From positions 1 through 49,173 of IMG/VR virus record IMGVR_UViG_3300037153_000350: 49,173 bases of DNA. One strand, 5' to 3'. The stretch is from a virus. The notes under the pieces were generated by a model. It saw only the letters and a list, made by a program, of their open reading frames with translations. It did not search any database and was not told where the DNA came from. Below are positions 2,633 through 47,724 of this stretch, in pieces; the stretch's first letter is position 1; the number at the start of each line of letters is the position of its first letter. The translations under genes and the position numbers were made by a program.

Positions 2633-3064
2633 GTGCCAGCGGGAGGGTGGCGGGGCTCGCCTAACAGCCTTGAAGCTTTGTCCCGCTATCGCGTGCCGAT
2701 CGATCAGCAACCCAAGTGCGAGCGCTGCAACAAGCCACGCCTCAAGGGTGGGCGGTTTTGTCCAAGCCATGCCGGCTGGCGGAAGGCTGATCCGAGCAAT
2801 GGCCGGTTTGAGCGCAACGTGCTTGCCCGCATGAACTATGCGGGACGCTTGCCGGCGGAAATTACGCGCTTGCCGGTATGGCGAGCCATGGACAAGCTGC
2901 CGACTTCGCTGCGGTCCCCTGCGCGCTTGCGGCTTGTCCTGCTGTGGGACAAGCGGGAGGCGCACTGTCTAGCGTGGACTGCGGCTTTACGGGACGCACA
3001 ACGACTTGTGGACACGCACCCTGGATTGTCCCGCAAGTTGTCGTGGTATCTCCAGGACGCGTGA
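2633..3064 (+). CDS. small zinc-finger protein
   Basis: 143-residue protein with a Cys-rich motif near its N-terminus: C-E-R-C followed by C-P-S-H about a dozen residues later, a CxxC..CxxH zinc-binding pattern. Similar N-terminal knuckles (often ending in C-x-x-H-G-G) occur in phage terminase small subunits and HNH-type proteins, so a DNA-binding packaging or regulatory role is possible but unproven. The rest is basic and helix-rich. The start is uncertain: TTG 2606 opens the frame, but GTG 2633 has an AAGAGG site 9 bases upstream, and 2606 lies inside the divergent promoter region. It overlaps the following frame at its 3' end. Function not recognised beyond the zinc motif. Confidence 0.6.
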   Translation: MPAGGWRGSPNSLEALSRYRVPIDQQPKCERCNKPRLKGGRFCPSHAGWRKADPSNGRFERNVLARMNYAGRLPAEITRLPVWRAMDKLPTSLRSPARLRLVLLWDKREAHCLAWTAALRDAQRLVDTHPGLSRKLSWYLQDA

Positions 3065-3392
3065 TCTGGCAGCACCACGCAAGCGAATTACGCGCCCGAC
3101 CATTGGCGGGACAAAAGCAAAGGCGCCGGACGGACAACAGGACAAGGCGCCGCGATATGATGTCCGCGCGTCGCTCAGTTCGATGCTAGACGATCCGAAA
3201 ATCCTAGGCGCAGCGCGCGCTACAGCCGCGCGCACGCTGGCAGAAATGGACGGGATGATCGGCAAGCATCAGGAAGCGCCCGACCGTACGGCGGGCAAGG
3301 AAGAGGTGGCCTTGTCCCGCGATGAACTACAGCAAGAGCTTGACCGACTTCGCGCCCATTGTGCCGCACGTGCGGCACAGGACAAAGGCTAA
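3006..3392 (+). CDS. hypothetical helical protein, possible terminase small subunit partner
   Basis: 128-codon frame opening at TTG 3006, overlapping the zinc-finger gene by 59 bases. The convincing part begins near 3060 and contains the segment S-M-L-D-D-P-K-I-L-G-A-A and a C-terminal amphipathic helix (L-S-R-D-E-L-Q-Q-E-L-D-R-L-R). No good ribosome site precedes the TTG. A CTG near 3067, eight bases after AGGAC, or coupling to the upstream gene are alternatives. Together with the upstream zinc-finger frame it may form a split small terminase or regulator, but no defining motif was recognised. A 20-bp perfect palindrome lies inside its last codons. Confidence 0.45.
   Translation: MWTRTLDCPASCRGISRTRDLAAPRKRITRPTIGGTKAKAPDGQQDKAPRYDVRASLSSMLDDPKILGAARATAARTLAEMDGMIGKHQEAPDRTAGKEEVALSRDELQQELDRLRAHCAARAAQDKG
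3360..3379. other. 20-bp perfect palindrome
   Basis: TGTGCCGCACGTGCGGCACA reads identically on both strands with no loop. It lies in the last codons of the 3006-3392 gene, before the gene-poor leader. A perfect loopless palindrome of this length suggests a site for a dimeric DNA-binding protein. The half-site GTGCCG also recurs three times in the non-coding stretch 33660-34005. Confidence 0.6.
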
Positions 3393-3708
3393 GCCTTTGT
3401 CTCGCAACACATTTGGCTTCCTTGTCAAGGTAAAGGACAAGGATGAGCGCTTGTCCCGCTTGTCCGCGAGCGCTTGGCTCCGGCCTTTCGCCCCCCTCCG
3501 GGGTCCCGCCCGGCCGCGCATATCCCCATGATGGACGCACCGGCCCAGCGCGGAGTTTACCAACTTTCGGTTCGCTGTCGAAAAGACACCCGCGCTTTAT
3601 CTAGCGGTTGACCGTTTCAGGAGGAAAAAGACTTTGCCATAGGTTTCAAGGCACATTGAACGGTCCTGTGTTTGTCCTGTAGTGTCCGCTTCGGGTAGGA
3701 GGACGCGC
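3393..3708 (+). promoter_or_regulatory. gene-poor leader upstream of the virion operon
   Basis: No convincing gene. It contains several GGACAA/TTGTCC hexamers, a TTGACC (3608-3613) followed by AGGAGG (3619-3624) that serves no visible gene, and a possible weak promoter: TTGAAC 3656-3661, 16 bases, TGTAGT 3678-3683. The ribosome site for the first fibre gene, AGGAGGA, is at about 3697-3703. Likely holds the late promoter, but the exact one is not certain. Confidence 0.35.
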
Positions 3709-5388
3709 ATGTCCATCACGCTTAGGCACCGTCGCCTTGCACGGGATGGAACAGCGGCGCAGTCGGCACCCATGCCGGCGCCGCCGGTGCGGGGGTTTTC
3801 CTTCACCGACTGGCAGGTCAACAACCCCACCGCCCCGCCGCCGGGGGACAAACTCGACAGCGAGTTCGACCGCGCCGATCAGGCCATTACGAACACGATC
3901 ACTTGGGCGAATACTTCGCTGAATAACGACGGGACCTTGCGCGCGGCGAGCGTGGGATCAGCGCAATTAGTCCCTGGTTTGTTCGATAGTGTCGCGGATG
4001 ACGCGATTTCTGAGGTTCAGCCACTGGTAGACGAGGCGACCGCGGCGAGTTCGAGCGCGCTGGCTTCGGCTGATGCCGCGGCGACCTCGGCCACGACGGC
4101 ACAAACCCAGGCAGACGCGGCTTCAGGCCGGGCCGGTGACGCCGAAGACGCCGCGGCCGTGGCCCAAGCCGCCGCCGGGCAGGCGGTGACCGCGGCCAAT
4201 GCCGCGGCGGTTTCGGAGAATAATGCCGCCAATTCCGACAATCACGCGACTTTGGCGCAGAATACCTGCGATGACTACGCCGACGTGTGTCAGGCGTGGG
4301 CCGAGCACATGCCCGACCCGATCCCGCCGAACATCCTGGCGGTGATGGGGGTGACCGGGGATCACTGGTCTTCGCGCTGGTGGGCGACCCGCGCGCAGGC
4401 CGCGTTCGGGTCGCTGGCGGAGCTTTATCTCGGGGTTTCCGACACACCCCCGACCACGACACAGACCGGACAACCCATTCCGACCGGGGCGATCTACTAT
4501 AACTCTACGCTTCAGCAACCATTCGTTTGGGACGGGCAGGAATGGCGGCCTTTTTACGCGCCGACCAAGGCTTTGACCCTCGGGTTAACTTACGCTGCCG
4601 TGTCAAATCAAACGAATTTCGTCCTAACTGCGCCTGATTTAGCGGGTAATACCTACGCGATCAGCGTGACTAATCCCGAGCCGATTGAAGTCTTGATCAA
4701 CGGAGTGAGGCAAGTCGAAACCCAGGGCGCCCTCGCCGGTGACTTTAGTTTGGACCCGTCTACTTCGACCGTTGTCTTTACCAAGGGTCTTCTCGTCGGT
4801 AGCTTAGTTCAGATCGACATTCTGGCTCCGGCCTCGACACTGGCGCCGTCTTCGGTAACCACCGAGCAGTTACTTGATTTCGATATTGACCCCGCGACCG
4901 GGAACCCAGGTCAGATCGATGGTGCACGGACTACGTTCCCATTGGCCGATGCGACGACAAGAGACCTCATCACAATTGCGCGAGCGACGGAAATCCTGGT
5001 TTTGCTCGACGGTGTGGTCCAGAAACCGGGCAACGATTACAACGTGACATCGGCCTCTGGAGCCAGTTCCATCGTTTTCGGCGAGGCTCCGGTGGTGGGC
5101 GCGCAGGCATGGGCGCTCTGGTATGCCCCCGAAGGCGTCGCCGCGCGCGCGACCCCCACGGTAGCTCGCGCAATGGCGCCCGCGGCGGCGGCTGAGGTCG
5201 CGCCGTGCTTTTGTCCCGTGGGCATGGTGGTGACCTCGTTCTTGTCCCCGTCGCGCACGCTCTCTCAGCCCGGTGGTGAGAACTGGCGTGCCCTCGATGG
5301 GTCCTCGATTGCCGGCACCAGACTCGCCGAGCTTTTGGGCACGGATTTCCTGCCCGAGCAGGTCAACGCTTACGTGCGGGTGAACTGA
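3709..5388 (+). CDS. tail fibre / collar protein
   Basis: 559-residue fibre-type protein. The N-terminal region (F-T-D-W-Q-V-N-N-P-T) looks like the virion attachment segment of phage fibres. Residues about 100-200 are an Ala/Ser/Asp-rich coiled coil (A-A-A-T-S-A-T-T-A repeats), as in trimeric fibre shafts. The middle has T7-gp17-like beta segments (I-E-V-L-I-N-G-V, I-L-V-L-L-D-G-V). The C-terminal 60 residues (P-V-G-M-V-V..W-R-A-L-D-G-S) resemble a phage tail-collar domain, ending abruptly. Start ATG 3709 is preferred over GTG 3682 because AGGAGGA lies 6-7 bases before it. First gene of the rightward virion block, 3 bases from the next gene. Confidence 0.8.
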   Translation: MSITLRHRRLARDGTAAQSAPMPAPPVRGFSFTDWQVNNPTAPPPGDKLDSEFDRADQAITNTITWANTSLNNDGTLRAASVGSAQLVPGLFDSVADDAISEVQPLVDEATAASSSALASADAAATSATTAQTQADAASGRAGDAEDAAAVAQAAAGQAVTAANAAAVSENNAANSDNHATLAQNTCDDYADVCQAWAEHMPDPIPPNILAVMGVTGDHWSSRWWATRAQAAFGSLAELYLGVSDTPPTTTQTGQPIPTGAIYYNSTLQQPFVWDGQEWRPFYAPTKALTLGLTYAAVSNQTNFVLTAPDLAGNTYAISVTNPEPIEVLINGVRQVETQGALAGDFSLDPSTSTVVFTKGLLVGSLVQIDILAPASTLAPSSVTTEQLLDFDIDPATGNPGQIDGARTTFPLADATTRDLITIARATEILVLLDGVVQKPGNDYNVTSASGASSIVFGEAPVVGAQAWALWYAPEGVAARATPTVARAMAPAAAAEVAPCFCPVGMVVTSFLSPSRTLSQPGGENWRALDGSSIAGTRLAELLGTDFLPEQVNAYVRVN

Positions 5389-5391
5389 CCC

Positions 5392-7950
5392 ATGAAACCG
5401 TTCGATCTAGCGCAGGCGGCGGGCAAGGGTATTAGCGTCCTGCCCGATCTGACCACGGTGACGCCGCATGTGGGCGACGTGCTGACGGTGCAGAGTTTCA
5501 CTGGCGGCAACGCGTTTCTCACTTATGCGCCTCCTGGTGGCATAGGCGCGGCGTATCTGCCTTTGAGCGGCGGCACGCTGACCGGTCCCTTGATTTTGGC
5601 CGCTGATCCTGTTGCTCCGCTTGGCGCCGCGACCCGGCAATATGTGGATAATGTTGTAAGCACTGAAACCGGTGCGTTTCTGCCGCTTACCGGTGGCACG
5701 CTCACCGGGCCGCTCAACGGCACCACGCTTGCCATGGCAGGCAACAGCACGATCGGTGGTGGCACCGGGATCGGCACGATCGCTCTTAACCCACTCGCCC
5801 AGGTCACGCCGTTCTCCGGGTTATCGCAGTTCCAGTGCAGTTATTTCCCCTCGGCCAGCGGCGGCACCTTCTCCCAGGTCACCACCAACGGACGGTTTGG
5901 CACGGGGATTTTCGGCGCTCCCAACGCCTTCGTCTGGGGATTGCTGTCTACGCTGAACTTCTCCGGAACTGGCGGCGTCGGCCAGCACGTCGCCATGTAT
6001 GGTCAGGGCATCCGCACCAACGCGATTGCGCAGCCCACGACCACGGTCGCGATCACCTTGGGCGCGCCGAGCGGGACGATATCAGTTACAGATATCACCA
6101 AGTTTGTCTATGACAATCAACCGATCCAGATCAACGGCAACCCCTACTACCAGGTCAGCCATACGGGCACGACCGGCGCCGGCACCATCACCCTCGACCG
6201 GCAGGTGAGCGTCGCTGACGGCACCGCCGGGAACACCGTCACCGGGCAGAACAATCCCGCCGTCTGGGCCGGCACGTTCGAGAGCATCGACGCCACCAAT
6301 CAGCCGAGTTCCAAAACCAACGCGCAGCTCTCGGTCGAGTTCGACCTGAAGGCTAACGGTGCCGATGACGGTGGCACTCTGCGCGACGGTGCGCCGTCGG
6401 GTATTCGGCAAATCCTTTCCCTCGTCGGCGTGAAACAGAACGCCGCCGGCGCTGATTGCGAAATTTCCAACGCCATCGGCCTCTATACCGACGGGCACAC
6501 GACGTTTAAGAAGTTCATTCACTTCGGCGGCCCGTGGAACCAGGCGGCGCTTGATCTGCGTCACGGCACGCAGCTCGCCGGGGCCAACACGCTCTGGATG
6601 GCGTCGGGACAAACCATCGCCTTCGATGCCAACGCTGTATCTCAACTCTGGGGTGACGGCACCAGCCTGAACGCTTCATCGCCCCTGATCGCGCAGAACA
6701 GCGTGACCGCGACCGGGGGCGCGCAGTGGGGTACGTCAAACTTCGGCCTCGCGCTGAACGTGCGCACCGCTGGCCGCAATCCGGCGATTGGCCTCGCCGA
6801 TAGCGCCGGGAGTAACTATTTCGCTCTGGTCAACGGCAGCGGGACGTTTCAAGTCGCGGCGGCGCCGGCGCCGGGTGACACCACGACCCCGCCGACCACG
6901 TTGCTGGCGCTCAATCGTGCTACCGGCGTGTTGACGCTGAAGGCCGACCCGGTCGGTAATCTCGACGCCGCGACTAAGCAGTATGTGGATAGTCACACGG
7001 GTGCGGGCACCTACCTGCCGCTCGCCGGCGGGGCACTCACGGGCGGTATCAGCTTCGGCTCGCAGCTCGCTGCATCAATCACCGACCTGACGAGACATAT
7101 CGCCCTGTTCGGCACGAATTTTGGTTTCAGCGTCACCAGCGGGCGGTTGAATTACAACGTGCCGGCGGGCAGTGCGCATACTCTGGTGATTGGCGGCACC
7201 GACACCCTGATCGTGGCAGCAGGAACGACCACCATCAACCAGGGTAATCTGGTGATCGCCGGCTCAGTGACCACGAACGCCGGAGCACAGTGGACCAGCT
7301 CGAACTTTGGTCTGGCTGCGAACGTCAAAGCGTTCGGGCGCAATCCGGCGATCGGCCTTGCTGATAGCACGAGTGCCAACTATTTCGCCTTGATTAATAA
7401 CGCCGGGAACCTTCAAATTGCCTCGGCGCCGGCGCCGGGCGACACCACGACCGCACCAACAACGCTAGTTTCGGTCAACCGCAGCACCGGCGTGGTGACA
7501 CTGCATGCCGATCCGGTGGCCAACCTGGATGCCGCCACCAAGCAGTATGTCGATACCAAGGCCGGAACCTACCTGCCGCTTACTGGCGGCACGCTCATCG
7601 GTCCGCTCAGCGGCACGACGCTCGCCATGTCGGGCGCGGTCACCGCCGGATTGAATATCAACAAGATCGCTCTGGTTCCCGCCAACAGTGGCGGCACACC
7701 ACAAATCCAGGCGGGCGGCCTTGATGCCAATTGCAACCTGTCGATTTCCGCATCGGGAACCGGGTCGCTCATCATCGTCCCGCCCCTGTTGCTGCAATCC
7801 GTGTCCGGCCCGTCGATCCGTTCCGGCACCGGTGCTGCAACCGGCACACAGCCATCGGGGAGCTTGTGGATCAGGACCGATGGGAGTGCCGGCGCACGCA
7901 TCTATGTCAGTCAGGGCGACGGCACCTGGACACCGATTGCGAGCGTGTGA
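5392..7950 (+). CDS. long repetitive tail fibre protein
   Basis: 852 residues, strongly repetitive. The fibre motif (Y/F)-L-P-L-(S/T/A)-G-G-(T/A)-L-T-G occurs four times, and A-D-P-V-x-x-L-x-A-A-T-x-Q-Y-V-D three times. These blocks are typical of phage fibre shafts built from stacked beta-strands. A 91-residue segment is duplicated (6718-6990 and 7282-7554). The C-terminus ends in a short motif (S-L-W-I-R-T-D-G..G-D-G-T-W) seen at fibre tips. No enzymatic domain seen. It starts 3 bases after the first fibre gene and its stop overlaps the next start by one base, so the three fibre genes are co-translated. Probable receptor-binding apparatus. Confidence 0.85.
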   Translation: MKPFDLAQAAGKGISVLPDLTTVTPHVGDVLTVQSFTGGNAFLTYAPPGGIGAAYLPLSGGTLTGPLILAADPVAPLGAATRQYVDNVVSTETGAFLPLTGGTLTGPLNGTTLAMAGNSTIGGGTGIGTIALNPLAQVTPFSGLSQFQCSYFPSASGGTFSQVTTNGRFGTGIFGAPNAFVWGLLSTLNFSGTGGVGQHVAMYGQGIRTNAIAQPTTTVAITLGAPSGTISVTDITKFVYDNQPIQINGNPYYQVSHTGTTGAGTITLDRQVSVADGTAGNTVTGQNNPAVWAGTFESIDATNQPSSKTNAQLSVEFDLKANGADDGGTLRDGAPSGIRQILSLVGVKQNAAGADCEISNAIGLYTDGHTTFKKFIHFGGPWNQAALDLRHGTQLAGANTLWMASGQTIAFDANAVSQLWGDGTSLNASSPLIAQNSVTATGGAQWGTSNFGLALNVRTAGRNPAIGLADSAGSNYFALVNGSGTFQVAAAPAPGDTTTPPTTLLALNRATGVLTLKADPVGNLDAATKQYVDSHTGAGTYLPLAGGALTGGISFGSQLAASITDLTRHIALFGTNFGFSVTSGRLNYNVPAGSAHTLVIGGTDTLIVAAGTTTINQGNLVIAGSVTTNAGAQWTSSNFGLAANVKAFGRNPAIGLADSTSANYFALINNAGNLQIASAPAPGDTTTAPTTLVSVNRSTGVVTLHADPVANLDAATKQYVDTKAGTYLPLTGGTLIGPLSGTTLAMSGAVTAGLNINKIALVPANSGGTPQIQAGGLDANCNLSISASGTGSLIIVPPLLLQSVSGPSIRSGTGAATGTQPSGSLWIRTDGSAGARIYVSQGDGTWTPIASV
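6718..7554 (+). repeat. internal duplication in the fibre gene (two 273-bp copies)
   Basis: Copy 1 at 6718-6990 and copy 2 at 7282-7554, offset 564 bp, in the same frame. The copies share G-A-Q-W..S-N-F-G-L-A, G-R-N-P-A-I-G-L-A-D-S and A-P-A-P-G-D-T-T-T, but are diverged at many codons, so the duplication is not recent. Each copy ends at a Q-Y-V-D / L-P-L-x-G-G junction. Confidence 0.85.
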
Positions 7951-9620
7951 TGACCAGTCGCATCCAGGCACAGCGGTTTTTCAGTACCACCCAGCGCCCG
8001 GCCAACGGCTCGCGTCCCTCGGGTGAAATTTGGCTGAACTTTCCTGACCTCAAGCTGGGTATGATCGATCCAACGCAGACCGCGATCGATCTCTTGCCGG
8101 TGCGTGTTTACTCCCCTGCCGCGACCTATGGTCCGGGTGATTACGCCAGGGTGGCAGGCGTTCTGCAACGCGCCAAGATCACCATCCCGCCGCATGCTTT
8201 CATGCAATCCGAGTGGGACCCGGTGAACGCGCAAAGCGTCAACGATCTGCGCTACACCACCCAAACCCAGAACGACGCGCGTTATTACACGCAAACCCAA
8301 TCCAACGCGCTGTTCACCACCCAAGCACAGAACGATGCGCGCTACTGGACCCAGGCTCAGGCCGATGGGCGCTACCTCAAGCTCACCGGCGGCACGCTTA
8401 CCGGCATCATCGACGTGCCGTTGCCAGGTATCGGTTTCGGCGGCGGACACCATTTTGGTTTTGGCTGGGATGGGACCAACACCAACTACTATGTGGACAG
8501 CACCTTCATCGGCGCCATTGCCAACCAGGCGTGGGTCAATGGTCGCCTTGGAAATTATCTCCCAATCGCGGGTGGCACGATCACCGGCGCGCTCGCGGTT
8601 AATGGTTACACCACGCTGAATAACGCCACGATTAACGGCACCACGACGACGGGCACGATGGTTGCATCGGGCGCGGTCTACGCCGGTAATCGCACCGCGC
8701 TCTATCATGACGGCACCCGCGCGTATTGGTGGCTTGATGGTTCGAACACGTGGCAGATGCAGTGGACCGCCGGGGTGCTTTACTATCTCAACAACGTCGG
8801 CACCCAGCTCTGGCGTTGTGATAGTGCTGGCAGCACCTACAACGCCGGCAACGCTTCGATCGGAAATACCCTTACTGCTAATGGCACGATCTACGGTAAT
8901 GTTGGCCGGATCATATCCCAGGGCGCGCATAATCCCTCGCTTTGCTGCTACAGCACCGGCACTGCCACCGCCGGCGGCATCTGGGAGGAAAGCGGCACGG
9001 TCTATCTCGGCGGCATGAACGGCGACGGGACGCCTTCGGCAACCTTTGGCGGGTTCTCCAGCACCATCGTATTCTTCGCCTCGCGCACGGATTTCGCTGC
9101 GTATTACGCGGGTGGCACGCGCAACTACCAGTTCCAGAACAACTACCTGTTTCGGTTCACCGAAGGCGACGGCTGGCTGCACTATCAGGCGCCTGCTGGT
9201 TACCTCATGGAGATCGCCCCCGATGGGACGTTCTTCGTGGACGTGGGGCAGGCGTTCAAGCCAGGGGGTGGCTCCTGGGCGGCGCTCTCCGATCCGCGCT
9301 TCAAGTGCGATGAACAGCCCTACGCGTGCGGCCTGGGCAAAATCTTACAGTTAAAACCGATCAGTTTCCGCTATGACACGGACAAGGTGCGCCACGGTGT
9401 CGCGGGAGCCACCTATTACGGCTTTAACGCCGAAGACGTGCAACAAATCATGCCGGAGATGGTGTCCACCGGGACCGTCCGCGCGGCGGACGAGGACGGC
9501 ACGATGATGCACGCGTTAACCCTCGACCTGAGCGCGCTGCCCTTGGCTTTGGTCAACGCGATCCAGGAACTCGCAACCCGGCTGACCCGTCTGGAGAACG
9601 CCCATAATGCAACCGTTTGA
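7950..9620 (+). CDS. tail fibre with C-terminal S74 intramolecular chaperone
   Basis: 556 residues from ATG 7950, which overlaps the previous stop (TGATG). Near residues 85-155 is a repeated shaft motif (T-Q-x-Q-x-D-A-R-Y, four times) followed by Y-L-K-L-T-G-G-T-L-T-G. The last 110 residues form a peptidase S74 domain: S447-D-P-R-F-K452 matches the Ser-Lys dyad of endosialidase-type auto-chaperones, followed by Y-G-F-N-A-E-D-V and a C-terminal coiled coil. Such domains trimerise the fibre and then cleave themselves off, so the mature fibre should end just before Ser447. The middle has no recognised depolymerase fold. Likely host-recognition fibre. Confidence 0.88.
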   Translation: MTSRIQAQRFFSTTQRPANGSRPSGEIWLNFPDLKLGMIDPTQTAIDLLPVRVYSPAATYGPGDYARVAGVLQRAKITIPPHAFMQSEWDPVNAQSVNDLRYTTQTQNDARYYTQTQSNALFTTQAQNDARYWTQAQADGRYLKLTGGTLTGIIDVPLPGIGFGGGHHFGFGWDGTNTNYYVDSTFIGAIANQAWVNGRLGNYLPIAGGTITGALAVNGYTTLNNATINGTTTTGTMVASGAVYAGNRTALYHDGTRAYWWLDGSNTWQMQWTAGVLYYLNNVGTQLWRCDSAGSTYNAGNASIGNTLTANGTIYGNVGRIISQGAHNPSLCCYSTGTATAGGIWEESGTVYLGGMNGDGTPSATFGGFSSTIVFFASRTDFAAYYAGGTRNYQFQNNYLFRFTEGDGWLHYQAPAGYLMEIAPDGTFFVDVGQAFKPGGGSWAALSDPRFKCDEQPYACGLGKILQLKPISFRYDTDKVRHGVAGATYYGFNAEDVQQIMPEMVSTGTVRAADEDGTMMHALTLDLSALPLALVNAIQELATRLTRLENAHNATV

Positions 9621-9804
9621 TCCAACCGAGCGTCTGAGCGTGACGCTGGAAGCCCAACAGTGGAACCAGTTGCTGGGGCTTCTGGGGGAGGCGCCGGCGC
9701 CTTATCGCATCACCAACCCGCTGATCCAGATGTTGCTGAACCAGCTTAACCCGCCTGAACCAGCGTCGTTACAGAAGTTTCCACAGGAGGTTCGTTCATC
9801 ATGA
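9607..9804 (+). CDS. small hypothetical protein in fibre operon
   Basis: 65 residues, starting inside the last 14 bases of the fibre gene. The protein is helical with a Gln/Leu-rich middle (Q-Q-W-N-Q-L-L-G-L-L) and no membrane segment. Similar short proteins after fibre genes are common, but no family was recognised. Its 3' end contains the AGGAGG ribosome site of the next gene. Confidence 0.65.
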   Translation: MQPFDPTERLSVTLEAQQWNQLLGLLGEAPAPYRITNPLIQMLLNQLNPPEPASLQKFPQEVRSS

Positions 9805-9828
9805 GTATGACCCCATGAGTATGACCCC
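9801..9828 (+). repeat. 14-bp tandem duplication spanning a start codon
   Basis: ATGAGTATGACCCC occurs twice head to tail (9801-9814, 9815-9828). The AGGAGG at 9785-9790 is spaced correctly for the first ATG, whose frame stops after five codons at TGA 9816-9818. That stop overlaps the second ATG (9815), which opens the real gene. Confidence 0.95.
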
Positions 9829-10153
9829 GACACCCCGTCCGCCCACCCCGCCGGCGTCTGCCGACCCGGCGCCTGCAAAACCGGGGCAACACCAGAAAGC
9901 CACGGACGATCCTCCCGGCAAATATGGCTATCAGGGCCGGCCTCAAGGTGAGAAATCACCACCAGTGCCGGAATATGAGCCGGGCACCAATCCGCCGGGG
10001 ACAAATCCGCCGGTGGCTCCCGCACATGATCCGGCCACGACGCCCATTCCGGGTTCTATCCCAGGCATCGAGCGCCCGGATGGCGGTCCGGTCGAGGTCC
10101 CGCATGAGGACAAGGACAAGGAGCGGGACAAGAACGGTCCTCCCAAAAAATGA
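9815..10153 (+). CDS. proline-rich hypothetical protein
   Basis: 112 residues, Pro-, Gly- and charge-rich, without predicted helices or membrane segments. It ends in E-D-K-D-K-E-R-D-K encoded by GGACAA hexamers. Start ATG 9815 is the second copy of a duplicated start segment. Its own ribosome site is 24 bases away, so translation may depend on re-initiation after a five-codon leader. The stop overlaps the terminase start (ATGA). It could be a virion linker or small terminase substitute by position, but no motif supports either. Function unknown. Confidence 0.6.
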   Translation: MSMTPTPRPPTPPASADPAPAKPGQHQKATDDPPGKYGYQGRPQGEKSPPVPEYEPGTNPPGTNPPVAPAHDPATTPIPGSIPGIERPDGGPVEVPHEDKDKERDKNGPPKK

Positions 10154-16546: not shown

Positions 16547-16638
16547 GTCAGTGTCTTGTCCTGCGAGGCTGGACAAAACCCACAACACCGCGCGATAACC
16601 CGTTCCTGGTAGCAACCAGTGCAGCGGTGAGCCTGGAA

Positions 16639-19694: not shown

Positions 19695-20444
19695 ATGGCT
19701 AAGCAGCTACGCGACATGCTGACCGATCTCAGGGCGGAGCTAGGCCACTCCACCAATATCGCGCACGGGATCAACGACCGTGACACGCTGATCTACTATC
19801 TCAACCGCACACAGCTTGATCTTTACCGTGATTTTGATTGGCCGCAGTTGATCATCGATCGGGATGTGAGCGTCGCCAACGGGCAGAGATATTACCCCTA
19901 TCCCACTGATCTCGCGTTTGAGGACATCGAACATATCTGGGTGCTGATTAATACCGTCTATAACGAGTTGGGCTACGGCATTGGCCCTTACGAGATGATC
20001 CTGTGGAACAGCGATAACGGGTTCACCTCGTGGCCGACGCAAAAGTGGATGCACCATCCGGATGATAACACGTTTGAGCTGTGGCCGGTGCCGGACGCTA
20101 ATGCGGAGAACGCCAACGCCCTTGTCCGTTTGCGTGGGACAAAGACAGTCAAGCCGCTCATCAATGACAGTGATCTCTCGACATTACCTGACAACCTGAT
20201 CGTGCTCTATTCAGCGGTGGAAATCCTCCAGCGCGACAGCGCCAAGGATGCACCCTTAAAACTCAACAAAGCCAACGAGGCGATGCGGCGTTATCGTGTG
20301 AGACAAGGTTCACACAAACGCAACTATCCCTTCGGTATCGGTTCGGGCGGTGGTGACGCGCAGTCGCGTCCGTCGCGTCAGCCTACGTTGGGCCTGGACT
20401 ACATCCCGCCCGGTTACGGCTCCGGGCCAAGCCACGTGCCATGA
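19695..20444 (+). CDS. head-tail connector (tail tubular A-like)
   Basis: 249 residues from ATG 19695, seven bases after the previous stop, with GGGGTGATC upstream. The frame is open further upstream but that part overlaps the 19016 gene and is not used. The pattern L-R-D-M-L-T-D-L-R-A-E-L-G and L-N-R-T-Q-L-D-L-Y-R-D-F-D-W, then V-S-V-A-N-G-Q-R-Y-Y-P-Y-P, matches podovirus adaptor proteins that sit under the portal. The C-terminal 45 residues are Gly/Pro-rich. Follows the T7-like gene order: capsid, adaptor, nozzle. Confidence 0.75.
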   Translation: MAKQLRDMLTDLRAELGHSTNIAHGINDRDTLIYYLNRTQLDLYRDFDWPQLIIDRDVSVANGQRYYPYPTDLAFEDIEHIWVLINTVYNELGYGIGPYEMILWNSDNGFTSWPTQKWMHHPDDNTFELWPVPDANAENANALVRLRGTKTVKPLINDSDLSTLPDNLIVLYSAVEILQRDSAKDAPLKLNKANEAMRRYRVRQGSHKRNYPFGIGSGGGDAQSRPSRQPTLGLDYIPPGYGSGPSHVP

Positions 20445-24345: not shown

Positions 24346-26187
24346 ATGGTTCCGTTCAATACGGGTAATGCGCAGTGGGATCAGGGCCTTGGCACGCTTG
24401 GCAACGCGCTGTTTCCTGATCCAAGCCGGATCGCGCAGGCGGGATATTATGGCGCTGAGCAGCGCAAAGCGCTGGCTGAGACCGAGCGCATGGGCGCTCA
24501 GCAGGCAGCGACGAACGCGTATCTGAGCAGAATGCCGGGTAGCGGCATACCGACCCAGCCGTTGGTGTTCGCGCCCTCGGCGTTGGCGGGGATGCCGCCG
24601 CACCTGGTGAACCCCAGCCTGCCAATGGCTGGACAAGGACAAGGACAAGCGCCACCACTCCCGACCGCGACGCTGGCTGATACGATCACCACCCAAGGTT
24701 CAAGCGCCACACCACCGCCCGCGTCTTCCCCGGCGCCGAACTCGGGGGCGCCTGTGGCGCCCAACACCACCGCCAGCAACGGCACGGTGCCGGTGAATGA
24801 CCAGGGATCAGGCCCGATCCATCCAGGCACGTTCACGACCTCAGATGGCGGGACGAAAATGTCCGGCCCTGCCGCGGCGGATGGCAGCCCCAAACCCTTC
24901 GACGTGGGCACGCTCATGGCGCTGGCCGTAGCATCTGGCGCCACCGCGGAACAGGCGCATGCGTTGGTTGAGGGCTACATCGCAGACGCGTTCAACAAAC
25001 ACCTCATCGATCGATCGACCATGGTCGATCTGGACGCGCAGCTGGGACAAGGGAAGTTTCTGTCTTCTGCGACCACGCTCGAACAACAGCGGCTCGCCAA
25101 TGCGGGGCAGCTTGCGGTTACGCAGACCACGCAGGCCGGAGAGACCGCACGCAAGGGCATGGAACTGCAAAACGTCACCGATGCGCAGGGCAACCCAATA
25201 ACCATTCCGCTCAGTCAGGCTGTCACTACATCCGGTTTGCATCCATACACGCCGGCGCTCACGCAAGAAGCGATGCAACAGCAAGGGCTGAAAGAGCGTC
25301 TCGGTATGACGCAAGTCAGCGCTGTTGATGCAAAGGGCAACCCTGTTTCTATCACACTGGATGAGTTCAACAAAGGCAAAGGTTACAAGCCATACGACGC
25401 TTCTACCGATAAGATGCTGAACGAGCCAATTGAGGTTTACGTGCATGATGCGCAGGGCAATCGCACCATACAAACGCGCAGAGCGCCTTTAAGAGATGTC
25501 TACAGTCAAAATCTCGATCCGACCCCGGCGGGCACGGATGCATTGAACGGGGTCATTCGTGGCGCTATTGCTGGGGGCGCTCCGGTTACGCCTCCAATCG
25601 TGCAAGCTTATACCGCGACAACACCTGTCGGGGCACAGACGCCGGGGGACCAAGCGGCTGAGCTTTCAGCACAGAACCGTGTGCTTAATGACCGCTACGC
25701 ACCCACGCCGGCGGTTGGAGGACGTAAAGAACCGGTCGTGCTTGGTGGAGATATCAATGCCGACTATCAAAGTTTGGCGCATCAATACTGGCAGTATGGT
25801 AGCCCGCAGCGTCCTGAGGTTAAAGGCAGCTACATTCTGGCGTCACAGGCCGCATTCGATGACATGGTGGCGCAAGGGCAACTACCGGCAAACATCAATC
25901 GCGGCAGCCTCGCCCCTGAAGAAATTGGTAATTGGATTTGGAACAAACAAGTTGTTAACGTCAATGGACAGGACGTTATTCAGATCACTCGTGCACCCGG
26001 TAAGGGTCCGATCCGCCCTCCAGCGAGACCAAATTTATCTTCGACCGTCGCGCCTAAATCGCTTGGCCCGGCACCGACCGATCCGGCAACCGGGAAGATC
26101 ACGGCAGATAATAAGTTCGTGCGTGACAACCAGACCGGAAGAACTCTCGTTGTCCGTGGCGGCCAACTCTATGAGACAGGAAGATAA
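24346..26187 (+). CDS. large hypothetical internal virion protein
   Basis: 613 residues. The N-terminal helix (A-G-Y-Y-G-A-E-Q-R-K-A-L-A-E-T) is followed by a Pro/Ala/Thr-rich linker (residues about 65-170), where G-Q-G-Q-G-Q is encoded by three GGACAA units. A helical middle comes next, then a C-terminal domain with repeated beta segments. Position between ejection proteins and a lytic transglycosylase suggests an internal core or ejection component comparable to T7 gp15. No known motif was seen. Composition near 25300-26000 is less GC-rich than its neighbours. Confidence 0.6.
   Translation: MVPFNTGNAQWDQGLGTLGNALFPDPSRIAQAGYYGAEQRKALAETERMGAQQAATNAYLSRMPGSGIPTQPLVFAPSALAGMPPHLVNPSLPMAGQGQGQAPPLPTATLADTITTQGSSATPPPASSPAPNSGAPVAPNTTASNGTVPVNDQGSGPIHPGTFTTSDGGTKMSGPAAADGSPKPFDVGTLMALAVASGATAEQAHALVEGYIADAFNKHLIDRSTMVDLDAQLGQGKFLSSATTLEQQRLANAGQLAVTQTTQAGETARKGMELQNVTDAQGNPITIPLSQAVTTSGLHPYTPALTQEAMQQQGLKERLGMTQVSAVDAKGNPVSITLDEFNKGKGYKPYDASTDKMLNEPIEVYVHDAQGNRTIQTRRAPLRDVYSQNLDPTPAGTDALNGVIRGAIAGGAPVTPPIVQAYTATTPVGAQTPGDQAAELSAQNRVLNDRYAPTPAVGGRKEPVVLGGDINADYQSLAHQYWQYGSPQRPEVKGSYILASQAAFDDMVAQGQLPANINRGSLAPEEIGNWIWNKQVVNVNGQDVIQITRAPGKGPIRPPARPNLSSTVAPKSLGPAPTDPATGKITADNKFVRDNQTGRTLVVRGGQLYETGR
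24631..24648 (+). repeat. (GGACAA)3 cluster
   Basis: Three exact GGACAA units encoding G-Q-G-Q-G-Q. One of four three-unit clusters of a hexamer that is common genome-wide; the others are at 28819, 38520 (reverse) and 45861. Confidence 0.95.
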
Positions 26188-26856: not shown

Positions 26857-29800
26857 ATGCCCCCGCCGCCGCCGCTGGACGGAGACACCGCACGGTATAC
26901 GGTCCTTCCGGATCAGCCGCCGGCGGGACAAGGACAAACCCAGGAACGGTTTACGGTCCTTCCGGATCAACCACAAACAGGTCAGAGACAAGGACCAAAC
27001 CAGGAACGATTTACGGTCCTTCCGGATCAGCCTTCAGTTTCTCCGGTTTCTCCAGTTTCTCCAGTTTCACCTCCAGCGGACTATCTCACACCAAACCCGG
27101 CAACGGGGCTGATTGATCAGCCATCGGATCAACCGGCGCCGATACCCACGCCTACGCCCACACCCGTGCCTGTGGCACCACCAACACCGCCCTCCCTCGC
27201 GGCGACTGTTGCGCCGGTCTCGGCTGTGCCACCGCCCCCGGCGATCCAGGCAATCGATCCCAACGCGCCGCCGCCCGAACAGACTTACCTCACGCCGAAC
27301 CCGGCGACGGGATTACCCGATCAGGGCGTTCCGCCGCGCAGTCTCAGCGACATGGTCAGCCCGCCGGCACAGCGGATCGGCCAAGCGGTGCTAGAACCTT
27401 TCACCGAACCGGTTTTGACACCCCATGGGCGTGAAGTCTTTGGCGCTTCCACGCCCTATGTAGAGGCCGCCGGGCATCTGTTGTTGGCGCCGCTGCAAGT
27501 GCCTGGGGCGGTCATTCGAGGCGGCCAGCAAGCGCTGATCGAGTTGGGTGCACCGCGCGATATCGCGGCGTTGCCAGAAGCCTTTCCACACGAGGTGCCA
27601 GGGGTCGCGCATTATCAGGCGACGGCAGAAGCATTCCGGGAGGCGATGCATGAGGCGGCGAACCGGCCGCCGATTATCACGCCGACGCCGACACCGGAAA
27701 CACCGCCAGCACCACGTGAGGCGCTTCCGGCGCCAGGGGTGAAACCGGGTGAGGGCGAGACACCAAAACCGCCAGCACCTGAACCGACCCCTCCTGTGCC
27801 AATGCCTGAGCCAGTGCCTGAGCCAGTGCCTGGGATAAAGCCTGCACCACCGCCTGAACCGACCCCTCCTGTGCCAGTGCCTCGGCCAGTGTCTGAGCCG
27901 ACCCCTCCTGCGCCAGTGCCTCGGCCAGTGTCTGAGCCGACCCCTCCTGCGCCAGTGCCTGCGCCAGTGCCTGGGCCAGTGCCTGGGCCAGTGCCTGAAC
28001 CGACCCCTCCTGCGCCAGTGCCTGGGCCAGTGCCTGGGCCAGTGTCTGGGACAAAGCTTACGCCAGCACCTGAACCGACCCCTCCTGTGCCAGTGCCTGA
28101 GCCAGTGCCTGAGCCAGTGCCTGAGCCAGTGCCTGCGCCAGCGCCTGAACCAACCCCTTCTGTGTCAACGCCGCCATCAACGCCCGTGCCTCAGGTCGCC
28201 GAGGCTGAAACGTCAATAGTTCAGCAGGCACAACAGGACGCGGCTAACCTCACACAGGAACATCTGGATACCTACCAGCCGGGACAAAACCAGCGTCTCG
28301 CCGCGACCGCGAACCAGCCGTTTGTGCAAAGCTGGGCACAGACCCTACCACCGGCGGAACAGGCCAAGGTCATCGATCCGCGCACCAACGTGCTCACACC
28401 TGAAGGCCACACACGCCTTGCCAATGCGATGGTCGCACACGCGTATCAGGACCCCGGCTTACTTCGGGACACACTGGAAGCACCCTTTAAGGACGCCCCA
28501 GGCGTGCGGCAGATCAGTCAGGGTCTGGTCGATGCCGCGGCGGACTACGCCAACCTGCGCAACCAGATCGACGCGGGGGAGACCGCGCCTGCGCTTGATA
28601 TCACGCCTAATCTTGCGGAGGCGCTGCGCGCGGTGCATGAGGCGGGCAGCCCGGCAGCCGTGGCGAAAATCCTCACTGCCAGCACGGATATCCATCCAGC
28701 CACTGCGCAGATATTGCGCGGGTTCCTGAACTCGAAGCTTACGGGGTGGGCGCCCTCAGCGCGGATCGCGAGAACGCTCTCGAATTACGCTAACCAAGCT
28801 TCCAGCGTGGAGGACTTGGGACAAGGACAAGGACAAGTTGAACCGGCGGCGATCCTTCAGGCCGCTCGCACGAACAAAACCGCGTCCGGCGTTACCCTCT
28901 TTGGCGCTGCCCCGCTTACATCTGAGACCCAGGCGCAGCTCAGTCAGATCGACGCTCAGATCGATCGGCTTCAAGAGCACGTTCAGACATTGCAATCACA
29001 GAGCCGGCTCACACCGGAGAGTTCGTTGCGGTTGCAACAAGCGCAACAGCAACTCTCCAATCGGCTTCAGGCCCGCGCCGAGTTTGAGAAACGCTTTCGG
29101 CCGCCGGTGCGACGCACCGGAAAGAAAACGCTGTCTCCGGAATTGGAGGAATTTCATAAGCACCAGATAGGCCGCGGCACGCCCGCTTATACCAGTGCGT
29201 TCGCGGATGCCGGGCATGATCCTCGCACTGCGGTGAACAAGCCGATCACTGAACAGATCAAAATCCTGCACGGACAGACCAAGAAAAAGTTTGGTTTCTC
29301 AGACATCGAAATCGCATCAGGGCGGCCGCACAAGGAGGTGCGGGACCAACTATTAGACCTCTATCGCGCCGGCCAGGACATCATGAACGCGGCGGGTTAT
29401 GCGCATGAGGTGTTAAGCCTGCGCGGTAAGCTCCGGCTTGTCCTGGAACGCGCCGATCCCAAGGGAACCAAGTTCGGCGCCTTTGCACCGCTGACCAACA
29501 CCATCACCGTTCGCGGCCGCGCCAATTCGCTGGGCCATGAGTGGGTGCATGCGCTTGACCGTGATCTCATGACCACGTTCGCGCAACAACCGAACATGGT
29601 CGAGCTGTTGTCCCGCTACACCCGCGCGGGAAACATCAACAGCGCATCACCGGTCGGAGCGTGGATGGCGAAAGTCATGAACACGCTCTATTTCGATCAG
29701 GCTGATCTCGCATTGAAGCACCAGGATTTAACCAATCGCGCGGCGAAAACCGACGCACAGGGCAATCCCACACCGGATGCGCGACGCGCCCGTGTGCAGC

Positions 29801-38248: not shown

Positions 38249-38869
38249 TTACGCGCGGAAGCCCACCCGTTCAGCCGCGGCGACGACCAGTTTGTAGAGT
38301 TCATAGCCTTGGGCCTCGGACACATCAGGCAGCCGTGTGACCTTCATCACCGTGTAGATCGGCGCCAGAGCGGCGCGGTGGTCCTTCACCATCTTCCGGG
38401 CCAGGCTGAGAGCCGCTTCACGTGCTTCACCGGCAGACATGGAGGGTTGTGCAAGGCCGAACTCGCTCAGGTCCTCATCATCGGAGAGGGGATCAGGTTC
38501 ACCGAGCATATCGTCGGCCTTGTCCTTGTCCTTGTCCCCGCCATTGGCCTTCTGCGCAGTAGCAGTGCTCGCAGACTTCGGCGGCCGACCGCGACCCCGC
38601 TTCGCGGGTATCCCAGGCTCAGGTTCAGTCGGTGCAGGTGCTGCGGGTGCTGCGGGTGCTGCGGGTGTAGCCACAGCTTCCGGTGTCACCGTCGCAGTGA
38701 CCGAACCCTGCTTGTTCATCTCGAAGCTCGCATCGGTGATTTTGAGGTCAATGTCGGTCAGCTTCACACCGTCCTGTTTGAACCTCTCGATCAGACGCCA
38801 GTAGTTCTCGAACAAATCTCCAGGCAGGGTGTCACAATTGTAGGTCAAAGTCAGATGCACGTTCGCCAT
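38249..38869 (-). CDS. AT-hook-containing recombination-operon protein
   Basis: 206 residues. A small N-terminal alpha/beta domain (H-L-T-L-T-Y-N-C-D) is followed by an Ala/Pro repeat (nine-base GCTGCGGGT unit three times on the plus strand), an AT-hook-like R-G-R-G-R-P-P-K, and D-K-D-K-D-K from three GGACAA units. A helical C-terminus follows (S-L-A-R-K-M-V-K-D-H-R-A-A-L). The AT hook suggests minor-groove DNA binding. Situated between helicase and nuclease, it may be an annealing or loading factor. The family was not recognised. Confidence 0.65.
   Translation of the reverse strand: MANVHLTLTYNCDTLPGDLFENYWRLIERFKQDGVKLTDIDLKITDASFEMNKQGSVTATVTPEAVATPAAPAAPAAPAPTEPEPGIPAKRGRGRPPKSASTATAQKANGGDKDKDKADDMLGEPDPLSDDEDLSEFGLAQPSMSAGEAREAALSLARKMVKDHRAALAPIYTVMKVTRLPDVSEAQGYELYKLVVAAAERVGFRA
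38520..38537 (-). repeat. (GGACAA)3 cluster on the minus strand
   Basis: Reads TTGTCC three times on the plus strand and encodes D-K-D-K-D-K on the minus strand, a different reading frame of the same DNA unit from that in the virion genes. Confidence 0.95.
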
Positions 38870-40514: not shown

Positions 40515-40988
40515 TTATATATCCGGGATCGTCTCTAGAGCGCCATAAAGCGCAATCAGCGCGGCGTCCGCGCGCCCCGCGCTTTTGACGCTAAGGAACT
40601 GCTTGGGATTGTGTGGGAATATCCTGATCGCGATCGCGCGATTGGATTTTTTATCGGCGGTAGCGCCAAAACGACGCTGCCAGTTCTGAGGTTCTACAAA
40701 TCTGGTTGGAACATGGTGCGCGGCGAGCACGCCGCGGATGATGCCATAACCCATGCCGAAGGTGAATGTGCTGCTCACCCCCTGCCGCGGCATGGCATGC
40801 ACGCGCTCAATAAACGCCGCAAAGGGTTTCATAGCATCGATCAAATCTGCAAGCAGGACCTCAGAAATTTCACGCTTATTACGCACCGGGAGGGTCGGCA
40901 TGTCGTGAACTTCGACAACTTCGTGGGTTGTCCCATCGACCAGGACAAGTGCACCCGTGAGGCCGGGATCGATACCCAGGATGCGCAT
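40515..40988 (-). CDS. RuvC-like Holliday junction resolvase
   Basis: 157 residues. The RNase H-like fold is marked by D7 in I-L-G-I-D-P-G, E61 in F-I-E-R-V, and D141 in G-R-A-D-A-A-L-I-A-L-Y-G, the RuvC acidic set. Aromatic loop residues (F-T-F-G-M-G-Y-G) are also present. It should cut four-way junctions formed during replication, clearing DNA for packaging. Start ATG 40988 overlaps the upstream stop by one base. Confidence 0.9.
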   Translation of the reverse strand: MRILGIDPGLTGALVLVDGTTHEVVEVHDMPTLPVRNKREISEVLLADLIDAMKPFAAFIERVHAMPRQGVSSTFTFGMGYGIIRGVLAAHHVPTRFVEPQNWQRRFGATADKKSNRAIAIRIFPHNPKQFLSVKSAGRADAALIALYGALETIPDI

Positions 40989-41456: not shown

Positions 41457-41481
41457 ACCGCTGTCAACCAAGGATGATCCC

Positions 41482-43652: not shown

Positions 43653-43677
43653 GACCTCAAAATTAGGATGCCCTGAG

Positions 43678-44572: not shown

Positions 44573-44699
44573 ATACGTCGCCGGCAATCTCCATTCAGGC
44601 TCATCCTCCGGGCCGATCGTCAAGGACCCAGCACAAGCCAAGGCGATCGCCATGAACCAGGGCCGCAAGGCGTCCCGGTCTGGGAGCAAGGGCCGATGA
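44517..44699 (+). CDS. DUF6496-like small basic protein
   Basis: 60 residues from ATG 44517 with AAGGAG 11 bases upstream; it begins inside the HTH gene. Pattern M-R-E-Y-V-A-G-N-L-H-S-G-S-S and V-K-D-P-A-Q-A-K-A-I-A-M-N-Q-G-R-K-A matches a family of short basic bacterial and phage proteins (DUF6496) of unknown function. Very basic, so nucleic-acid contact is possible. Its stop overlaps the next start (ATGA). Confidence 0.75.
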   Translation: MAKGIGPKGRRKVATTMREYVAGNLHSGSSSGPIVKDPAQAKAIAMNQGRKASRSGSKGR

Positions 44700-44893
44700 C
44701 GGGCGCAGGAGCGCCGCAGACGGCGATCCGCAACCCGGACATGCTCTTGATGTGGTGCGCGCTTCAACGCCAGGGGGACAAACCTACCGGGGCCACCGCG
44801 CGCTTGGTCGAGTTCCTTGAAGAGATCGTGCTCACGCCCGCGATGGATTATGGAAAGACAAACCCGGACAAACAGCTGAGCTTACCGTTCTAG
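44696..44893 (+). CDS. small hypothetical protein
   Basis: 65 residues overlapping the previous stop by 4 bases. Helical middle (M-L-L-M-W-C-A-L-Q-R-Q-G, A-R-L-V-E-F-L-E-E-I-V). Its C-terminus D-K-Q-L-S-L-P-F contains Q-L-S-L-P-F, which matches the bacterial sliding-clamp-binding consensus (Q-L-x-L-F type), an interesting but unproven hint of clamp interaction. Last gene before the terminator. Confidence 0.65.
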   Translation: MTGAGAPQTAIRNPDMLLMWCALQRQGDKPTGATARLVEFLEEIVLTPAMDYGKTNPDKQLSLPF

Positions 44894-44949
44894 GGTTTTA
44901 TAGGAGCTTGCACGACACCGGCATCCCGCGCATAGAGCTATGATGCGCT

Positions 44950-44990
44950 GAGGGGGCCGAGTGCTGTTGCACACCGGCCCCCTCGTTTTT
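44950..44990 (+). terminator. rho-independent terminator of the lysogeny/accessory operon
   Basis: GAGGGGGCCG (44950-44959), 15-base loop, CGGCCCCCTC (44975-44984), G and five T. Ten paired bases followed by a T-run, 57 bases after the last stop. Confidence 0.92.
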
Positions 44991-45222
44991 CCTGCCCGTC
45001 GCCGCGGCAGTTACGCCGCTTTCCCCTTGAAGGTCACCACTCCTGCAAGGCGCGGCCGGAAAGCGGGTATCGCGGAGAAAGGACACTCCGCGACAGGCAC
45101 AATATGTGCAGCATTTTCGTGCCCTGCAAGACGTGATCGAGCGGCTTGACCTTAATGGTCCTGCGCTGTTGTTGTGTCACAACCGTGTCAGTCATCACCC
45201 ATCGGACAAAAGGACAGTGCTC
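44991..45222 (+). promoter_or_regulatory. leader of the primase-helicase gene
   Basis: No gene seen. Contains a hairpin CGCGGAG, AAAGGACA loop, CTCCGCG (45071-45092), and GCACAATATGTGC just after it. The primase frame is open here but lacks a ribosome site. A promoter is expected but none matches convincingly; TTGACC at about 45148 has no good -10. Confidence 0.4.
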
Positions 45223-47724
45223 ATGCCCGATATTACGAACGATGCGTTTTTGCGCGTGCTCTTCGACGGCGACGCGAACGTAGCACTCACCCATCTTTGC
45301 GCGTTCCCGCATGATCCGGACAAGGACGGAGGCTGGGGCGGCGGCCGCGGTGAATGGATGCTGCCATATTGCAAGGCGGACCTGAATACCTATTACGCCG
45401 TATCCCTGTTCACCGCGGCCACGCGGCGCAAGGTATGGTTCGACCGGTGCTATGTGCTGGGGATCGATGATGTCGGCACCAAGATCGACCCGGCGCGCGT
45501 GCGGACACTCATGGACGGGTACGAGCCGACGTATCGGTTAGAGACCTCGTCGGGCAATGAGCAATGGGGTTATCGGATCAATCCGCCCTTGCGGCATTGC
45601 GCCAAGGTGGAACTACTCCAGCGCGCGGTGCGGGTGAAACTCACCGGCATCGATGCACCCGACACCGGACAAGAAGGGGTCAACCGATATTTCCGTCTGC
45701 CAGTTGGGACCAACCGCAAGGCCGCCTGTGGGCCGAACGGGTTTCGGGTTGTGCTCCAGACATGGAACCCAGACCAGGTGCTGGATCACGCGAAGATCGA
45801 GCGCCTGGTCGATGCACTGTTCGATATCAGCCAGGCGGAGGAACTCAAGGCAGAACTCTGGGACAAGGACAAGGACAACAAACCGAGTTCTCCTGGACAG
45901 CTTTCACGCACCACCTCGACCTCGACCCCGACCTCGACCCCGACCTCGACCTCGACGACCTCCGCCGCCGCCGGTGTTGATCCCGTGTTTCGTGCCATGA
46001 AGCGGTTGGGGCTGGTCCTGGGCGGGCCACGCAGTTCGCCCATGGGCGTCGGCACCTATGACGTGATCTGTCCCTGGGCAGCCGATCACACCGCGCGTGC
46101 CACCACCGGCACCGCGTATGTGCCAAGCACGGGCGCGTTTAAGTGCCAGCACGGACATTGCGTTGACCGTGACACGGATGCGGTGCGTGCACGCTTAGAG
46201 GACATGCTGCGCGACGCGACTGGCGGCAAGGAAGGCTTGGTGCATGAGGATGTATTGTTGGAGGTGGTTGACCCCAAGGATGTGCCGACCCCACCTCAGG
46301 GCCTGCGCGGCCCGAACAAGTCACCGCAGGACAACGCGCTGGCGTTCATGGGCCGGATCGTATTGGTTCTCACTGAAGGCTGTTTCTTCGATCTGCTCAC
46401 GCGTGAACGCTATCACTCCGATCGTGAGTTCAACGCGCGCTTCAAGCACGCGCTGTATGATGTGCTACCGGTGTTGAACCAAGGCACGGCCAAAGAAAAG
46501 CGACTGACACCGGCGCAATGGTATATCGAACATCCCGATCGCCGGTTAGCCGATGGATTTGTGTCGATGCCGGGCGAGGGAGCACTCTATCAGGACGGCC
46601 CCAAGATCTTGGTCAATCATTGGCGGCCCCACGTGCGCGCGCTGCGTCATGCGCCGGTGGGTGACGTGAGTGCGGACAAGATCGCGCCTTACCTCAAACT
46701 CTTCTGGCATATCTTAGGAGACACTACGCTCGAAGAGTGGGAGCTGGGCGAGCATGTGCTGGACCTGATGGCGCTGATCGCAGGGTCGCCCACGGTCAAG
46801 CCCGGCCATCATGTTGTCCTGACAGGACAACCGGGGCTGGGCAAGGAACTGATCATAGCCCCCTTGCTTGAGGTGCTTGGCGAACAGGCTCTGGTAATCA
46901 AACCGGGTGATCTCAGTGCACAGTTCAATCCCTGGATGACGCGACGGCTCGTGTTGATCTCAGAGATGCGTCAGACCACGCGCGGACAGCTGACACCACA
47001 TGATCAGATGGCGCTGCTCAAAGTGGCCACCGACAACGCCAAGAAAGCGGTGTGGATCAATCCGAAATACCAAGCCCCCTACACCGCGCGCAACGTGCTG
47101 GCGCTCTGGATCACCTCGAACGAGCAGATACCTTTGCACTTAGATCAGGGCGATCGACGCTTCTTGGTCCTGAACCGACTGGCAACACCACTGTGGCCGA
47201 TGAGCCGATATGCCGATCTCGTGCGCTGGCTGCGCACGGACAATAACGCCGCGCGGGTGGGCGAATACTTTCATCGTCGATGGGTCGATATGGGGGATAC
47301 GCGGCGGGATGCGCTCATGGGGCATGCGCCGCGCAATGAGGACAAGGTATTGCTCGAAAGCTTGTCCGCCGATCCGATCGAAGCATGGCTACGCGAAACT
47401 ATCGCGACAACACCCCCTAATCCCATGGCGTTGCCAAGTGTGGTGAGTGTCGCATACGTGATGAAACGTCTTGTCGATACGCGTCGAAATGGGGACGAAG
47501 GACTGCACCCGAACTGCAACGTTCCGACCGCCACAGCGCTCGGAATAATGCTGCGGAAATTAGGTGGAATATCCGCTCATGATGGAAAACCGGTTTGGAT
47601 TAATGGTCGGCCGACACGACTAATTGTTGTGCGGGATTACGATTTGTTTATAGGATTGACGCCAGATGTGCTGGCAAAAATTGCCGATGATAATTCTCAA
47701 GGGTTTTCTGGCTTGAAAAGCTAG
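45223..47724 (+). CDS. primase-helicase (RepB-type primase plus SF3-like helicase)
   Basis: 833 residues from ATG 45223 (AAAAGGA 8-9 bases upstream). N-terminal region: C-Y-V-L-G-I-D-D-V-G-T-K and Y-R-L-E-T-S-S-G-N-E-Q-W-G-Y, the acidic and SSGN motifs of phage/plasmid RepB-type primases. A Ser/Thr/Pro linker follows (about 230-247), then F-K-C-Q-H-G-H-C (306-313), a zinc-like knuckle. The helicase part has Walker A G-Q-P-G-L-G-K-E (535-542), W-M-T-R-R-L-V-L-I-S-E-M for Walker B, and L-W-I-T-S-N-E for sensor 1, as in SF3/D5-like phage helicases. It likely opens and primes the adjacent origin. The last 60 codons are noticeably AT-richer. Confidence 0.88.
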   Translation: MPDITNDAFLRVLFDGDANVALTHLCAFPHDPDKDGGWGGGRGEWMLPYCKADLNTYYAVSLFTAATRRKVWFDRCYVLGIDDVGTKIDPARVRTLMDGYEPTYRLETSSGNEQWGYRINPPLRHCAKVELLQRAVRVKLTGIDAPDTGQEGVNRYFRLPVGTNRKAACGPNGFRVVLQTWNPDQVLDHAKIERLVDALFDISQAEELKAELWDKDKDNKPSSPGQLSRTTSTSTPTSTPTSTSTTSAAAGVDPVFRAMKRLGLVLGGPRSSPMGVGTYDVICPWAADHTARATTGTAYVPSTGAFKCQHGHCVDRDTDAVRARLEDMLRDATGGKEGLVHEDVLLEVVDPKDVPTPPQGLRGPNKSPQDNALAFMGRIVLVLTEGCFFDLLTRERYHSDREFNARFKHALYDVLPVLNQGTAKEKRLTPAQWYIEHPDRRLADGFVSMPGEGALYQDGPKILVNHWRPHVRALRHAPVGDVSADKIAPYLKLFWHILGDTTLEEWELGEHVLDLMALIAGSPTVKPGHHVVLTGQPGLGKELIIAPLLEVLGEQALVIKPGDLSAQFNPWMTRRLVLISEMRQTTRGQLTPHDQMALLKVATDNAKKAVWINPKYQAPYTARNVLALWITSNEQIPLHLDQGDRRFLVLNRLATPLWPMSRYADLVRWLRTDNNAARVGEYFHRRWVDMGDTRRDALMGHAPRNEDKVLLESLSADPIEAWLRETIATTPPNPMALPSVVSVAYVMKRLVDTRRNGDEGLHPNCNVPTATALGIMLRKLGGISAHDGKPVWINGRPTRLIVVRDYDLFIGLTPDVLAKIADDNSQGFSGLKS
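45861..45878 (+). repeat. (GGACAA)3 cluster
   Basis: Three exact units, encoding D-K-D-K-D in the linker before the Ser/Thr/Pro tract of the primase-helicase. Confidence 0.95.
45913..45960 (+). repeat. six-base linker repeat in the primase-helicase
   Basis: ACCTCGACC-type hexamers repeated about eight times, encoding T-S-T-S-T-P-T-S-T-P. It separates primase from zinc/helicase domains and is probably a flexible, slippage-prone linker. Confidence 0.85.

Follow-up and report, generated by a model that had tools for sequence, protein, structure and literature searches.

Chi (read by RecBCD or AddAB) and KOPS (read by FtsK) are short, exact, over-represented words that lie within genes, are specific to a lineage and are read by ATP-driven DNA machines; their readers are host-encoded, and the words are usually strand-skewed. 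The hexamer GGACAA and its complement TTGTCC resemble them in the 49,173-base phage record IMGVR_UViG_3300037153_000350 (hereafter the window, i.e., the whole stretch of DNA analysed), but here the word is phage-borne, unskewed and tied to a phage gene pair encoding a MoxR-type AAA+ ATPase (CobS) and a VWA-domain protein (CobT). We see about an even chance that GGACAA/TTGTCC is a selected, phage-specific DNA self-address, read by a DNA-handling machine that depends on these two proteins (together CobST).

Other described systems invite comparison. The stoperators of Cluster A mycobacteriophages are about 13 bp long, number in the tens, lie mostly between genes and are oriented with transcription. 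Like them, the word of the window is scattered widely over a temperate phage genome and differs between groups, but its approximately 130 six-mers are mostly intragenic and in both orientations, and the intergenic, transcription-oriented arrangement does not apply to them (cf. PMC9283540). The T7 primase site, 5'-(G/T)(G/T)GTC-3' (PMC12839067), shares its GTC core, and the T or G before it, with many words of the window's family; those sites, however, lie on single-stranded template and are mildly enriched in T7, and the primase does not track the word in the family. Finally, CobS/CobT pairs have a wide distribution among the tailed viruses that infect bacteria and archaea (PMC8651126). The window genes (AAA_5/CbbQ_C and VWA, with CobT_C in relatives) are of this viral kind, whose published role concerns cobalamin metabolism.

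An Exact Word in Excess of Codon Usage

The window belongs to a temperate phage of about 60% G+C. GGACAA occurs 83 times and TTGTCC 50 times across the whole genome, and this exact count of 133 bears out the roughly 130 copies estimated in a preliminary description; the pair is the sixth most frequent hexamer and the first among those not composed purely of C and G. Shuffling synonymous codons within each gene, which leaves the proteins and the codon usage of each gene unchanged, yields an expectation of about 51 (z about 11-12.7), a null that relies on a simple gene caller and does not retain all codon-pair effects, and a Markov-4 model expects 87. The word is thus strongly over-represented beyond codon usage, as Chi and KOPS are, and codon usage and dipeptides are ruled out as the source of the excess. 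The word is also exact, since all one-base variants of TTGTCC lie near or below expectation, making all six positions specific, and the best extended form is TTGTCCC (54 vs 13 expected). A second hexamer, GGATCA/TGATCC, is enriched as well (93 vs 49 expected).

Both strands are enriched throughout the genome (2.3x and 2.8x), with no strand skew relative to replication, and the same holds relative to gene sense (4.6x and 3.4x). Most sites fall within genes, in every frame and in both orientations. The strand bias and regular spacing for which the preliminary description had proposed a test were not found in the window, where the sites are instead clustered (coefficient of variation 1.3).

Lineage-Specific Words and Their Conservation

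GGACAA/TTGTCC itself is rare in most of the first 78 relatives. The absence from close relatives with the same codon usage, which had been named as grounds for rejecting selection, therefore literally occurs, but each lineage proves to have a GTC word of its own. The top words are TGGTCC, CTGTCC/CGGTCCC, GTCCCC, CGGTCCCG, GGGTCC, TGTCTC, GTGTCT and GTCTCC, next to TTGTCC in the window; GTC is their common core and the flanks vary. The codon-preserving null is beaten in nearly every CobST-bearing genome, each lineage having a different sharp GTC word.

Alignments of phages that use the same word show that the sites are kept at 18/22, 39/91, 78/103 and 25/52 positions, compared with 0.44, 0.26, 0.55 and 0.23 for hexamers of equal G+C in the same alignments. 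Retention is typically 1.6-1.9x that of these controls in most same-word pairs, the weak cases (36/63 vs 0.52 and 23/27 vs 0.82) coming from the pairs G006-G016 and G007-G011. Between phages with different words, retention is mostly at or below control, with TGGTCC or CTGTCC often aligned to TTGTCC. Site retention together with these exchanges suggests that the word is under selection and that its reader has switched. With the codon null, the use of all frames and both strands, and the conservation above control hexamers among same-word phages, the earlier proposal that the DNA word rather than a peptide is kept holds.

CobS and CobT Predict the Presence of a Word

The preliminary description missed the gene pair that predicts word presence. 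The first relative found with hardly any word (G004) lacks both CobS and CobT, whereas its neighbours carry both. In a set of 34 relatives whose genomes are complete or nearly so, 22 of the 23 with CobST and 1 of the 11 without have a sharp GTC word, at a z threshold of 7 chosen after seeing the data (Fisher p 9e-7; Mann-Whitney p 1e-5, a rank test independent of the threshold; neither is tree-corrected). The sole word-bearing relative without the pair, G030, retains a CobS remnant. An earlier presence/absence scan of genes had excluded the two discordant genomes; an unbiased scan over all 34, covering gene families found in 4-30 genomes and using a continuous score, ranks CobT first (p 1.7e-5) and CobS second (6.8e-5), the next family reaching 5e-3. 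The two keep these ranks with a statistic blind to GTC. Gene content narrows the choice further: G042 and G045 are devoid of both CobST and word, yet have primase, RuvC and PolA in common with the word-bearing G046 and G051, and PolA thereby failed as a candidate reader.

The CobS/CobT Pair of the Window

CobS (1074-2543, minus strand), the second-best gene correlate of the word, carries AAA_5 (3e-18) and CbbQ_C and has a MoxR fold, with CbbQ2 and NorQ-NorD as top Foldseek matches. A four-helix N-terminal domain (residues 3-67) is predicted with fair confidence and could bind DNA or a partner. CobT, the best correlate, is split by the contig ends, both of which hold a 39-bp tandem array (1-340 and 48925-49173) that encodes its linker. 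Joining the ends in phase yields a single open reading frame (ORF): the N-terminal part (3-1046, minus strand) has a helical domain followed by a linker of 13-residue repeats, and the C-terminal part (48016-49173, minus strand) contains the VWA domain. CobT matches VWA_2 (1.8e-7) and, below the cut-off of that model, CobT_C (0.0027), a domain also found in CobT of relatives, and its gene adjoins that of CobS. The two are members of the viral cobaltochelatase-like AAA+/VWA pairs.

In the N-terminal domain of CobT, HExxH and, after it, LEDVRIE make up a zincin-like motif; this motif is conserved in phage CobTs and could account for the 'peptidase' annotations in cyanophages.

Sites Within the Window

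The densest stretch spans 2606-3672. The preliminary description had counted about 14 copies in non-coding DNA at 2670-3680; the density stands, with 15 copies, but the segment is mostly coding, and its two small ORFs (2606-3064 and 3006-3392) are kept in relatives. Tandem runs of two to three units are real at all the positions first reported (10108, 16935, 24631, 28819, 38520 and 45861), among them (GGACAA)3 at 24631-24648 (plus strand) and the runs at 28819-28836 (plus), 45861-45878 (plus) and 38520-38537 (minus). The inverted pair TTGTCC-N9-GGACAA is found at 16556-16576, 20122-20142 and 40928-40948, with similar pairs at 2934, 44451 and 46814.

The fibre genes (6600-9990) are as sparse as had been described, with 2 copies. 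The CobS/CobT module of the window likewise has 2 copies, for 1.9 expected under the null. That this module is newer does not follow, because over 20 relatives it is as enriched in words as the remaining genome (2.0x vs 2.2x).

Besides CobST, the window encodes terminase, portal, major capsid protein, PolA, a Gp2.5-like single-stranded DNA-binding protein, a RecB-like exonuclease, an SNF2 helicase, RuvC, an integrase and a primase-helicase; the closest annotated phage found is Mae-Yong1326-1. Proline-rich repeats with periods of 12, 39, 60 and 75 bp occupy 26892-28164, within the gene for a virion protein of 2136 amino acids.

Words Outside the Family

Some more distant phages also have sharp words. 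CRP-810, which carries CobST, has CGTCTG 142 times (65 expected), and phiM5 (L152, MF074189), which carries a MoxR ATPase with a DUF7192 neighbour, has TGACA/TGTCA 423 times against 142, evenly on both strands, the strongest word seen. In Rhizobium phage P106B (L343), which has a MoxR gene, CCTGGA reaches z 11 and CGTCC reaches z 8.9. No sharp GTC word was found in other phages with an archaeo-eukaryotic primase (AEP) or a Cas4 exonuclease (BPP-1, AhaSv, AH2, PW916, MW202496 and MW202483). The link between word and CobST is strong in the window's family and suggestive beyond it.

Weighing the Self-Address and Its Alternatives

Several observations weigh against a CobST-read address. The TerL tree shows about five changes in CobST, leaving only 4-5 independent contrasts of CobST and word; in the most favourable count four contrasts all agree (4:0), and otherwise three agree and one is tied (3:0; sign test p 0.125-0.25, non-significant). 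One relative, G036 (L221-L223), is a clear exception within the family, having full-length CobS and CobT and no GTC word, and background words attain z 7-9 in some phages, making weak cases unsure. Outside the family, TGTCT in the Cobavirinae phage T5S1 (222 vs 133) reaches only z 6.3, no word appears in the 50-kb parts of RHph_N1_10, PhiR41_1, S-SM2 and LeBron, all large phages with CobS/CobT or a MoxR gene, and MW202898 (L158, a Manatee Spring podovirus) has a sharp genome-wide GGCCA/TGGCC (225 vs 96) with no CobS/CobT detected. The predicted structure of CobT is too poor to read (predicted local distance difference test 51), and the analysis turned up no known DNA-binding domain. Moreover, the published role of viral CobS/CobT lies in host cobalamin metabolism through host CobN (PMC8651126). 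That role leaves a word spread over the whole genome unaccounted for; no CobN is present among the window genes examined, and no link between viral CobS/CobT and genome words was found in the literature searched.

Among the alternatives, it is improbable that the phages mimic a signal of their hosts, such as Chi, KOPS or an uptake-like sequence, with different words reflecting different hosts. Chi words do differ between hosts, and phages make use of them. In the family, however, the GTC core stays constant while the flanks vary, word presence follows a phage gene pair, and 50 kb of pSymB from the host of phiM5 show no excess of the phiM5 word TGTCA (53 vs 64). A host site is unlikely on this evidence, a judgement made on phiM5 only; prophage scans of genome contigs for the window's host gave no match. 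We hold it no more probable that a context-dependent mutational or repair bias, perhaps linked to CobST, creates or protects GTC words that have no function as sites. Such a bias would likewise raise counts on both strands and apparent retention, and slippage could produce the clusters and (GGACAA)3 runs; an exact word of 6-7 bp with no spill-over to one-base neighbours, maintained despite constraints from protein sequence and codon usage, is nonetheless easier to explain under selection.

A slightly smaller chance attaches to the idea that the words are recognition sites at which each phage's primase starts lagging-strand priming. The primase was favoured first as reader, for the fit of many family words to NKGTC (NKGTCC words resemble the T7 site; PMC12839067), and AEP primases can be sequence-specific, as is that of NrS-1 (PMC8718748), whose structures are matched by the C-terminal DUF5906 helicase of the window's primase-helicase (45106-47724, plus strand). 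It was dropped on gene content and strand symmetry: no homologue of this primase was detected in Mae-Yong1326-1, which has a strong word, the word is weak or lacking in G004, G042 and G045, which do carry the primase, both strands are equally enriched along the genome, unlike what fixed forks would give, and T7 itself has only a mild excess of its site.

It is quite improbable, too, that an immunity repressor binds the dispersed sites to silence the prophage, as at the stoperators of mycobacteriophages (PMC9283540, PMC6550527). The window does have an integrase, but integrase and its adjoining gene are also present in wordless relatives, neither tracks the word, and 133 short, mostly intragenic sites in every frame and with no strand preference are poorly suited to such a role. 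The least probable reader is the RuvC-type Holliday junction resolvase (40515-40988, minus strand), for which dense cognate cleavage sites would let branched concatemers resolve before packaging: favoured after the primase because such enzymes cut at short sequences (PMC7078210), orientation is irrelevant to them and RuvC is present in the family, it was ruled out by its occurrence in many wordless phages (the relatives G004, G010, G042, G043, G045, G047, G049 and G053, and SOVA965, S72, MW202711, MW202496 and phiCbK), while the word-bearing G048 gave no RuvC match.

A Possible Virus-Encoded DNA Address

Under a CobST-read self-address, phages of this family would retain a GTC-centred word roughly once every 370 bp, whichever way round, for as long as they encode the CobS/CobT-like AAA+ (MoxR)/VWA pair. 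CobS and CobT, rather than something always co-inherited with them, would be the reader: alone or with a remodelled DNA-binding partner, they could form an ATP-powered machine for recognising the word, whichever strand it lies on. Recognition would tell phage DNA from other DNA by a logic comparable to that of Chi or KOPS, still the best class for this word, as the preliminary description had supposed in general terms. Possible outcomes include loading on phage DNA, sparing it from nuclease or routing it during replication, host takeover or packaging.

More tentatively, with a chance somewhat short of even, phage CobS/CobT may be a DNA-directed AAA+/VWA machine rather than a B12 accessory, with machine and GTC self-word co-evolving and switching together as a new kind of virus-encoded address for self and non-self DNA. 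The role of CobS/CobT in tailed viruses has been guessed from the name alone, and for this phage family at least, the association of gene and word is a sequence-level clue to a role on DNA. The question is directly testable, as the predicted word varies from phage to phage and is exchangeable in vitro, and genome statistics alone can reveal virus-encoded sequence readers.

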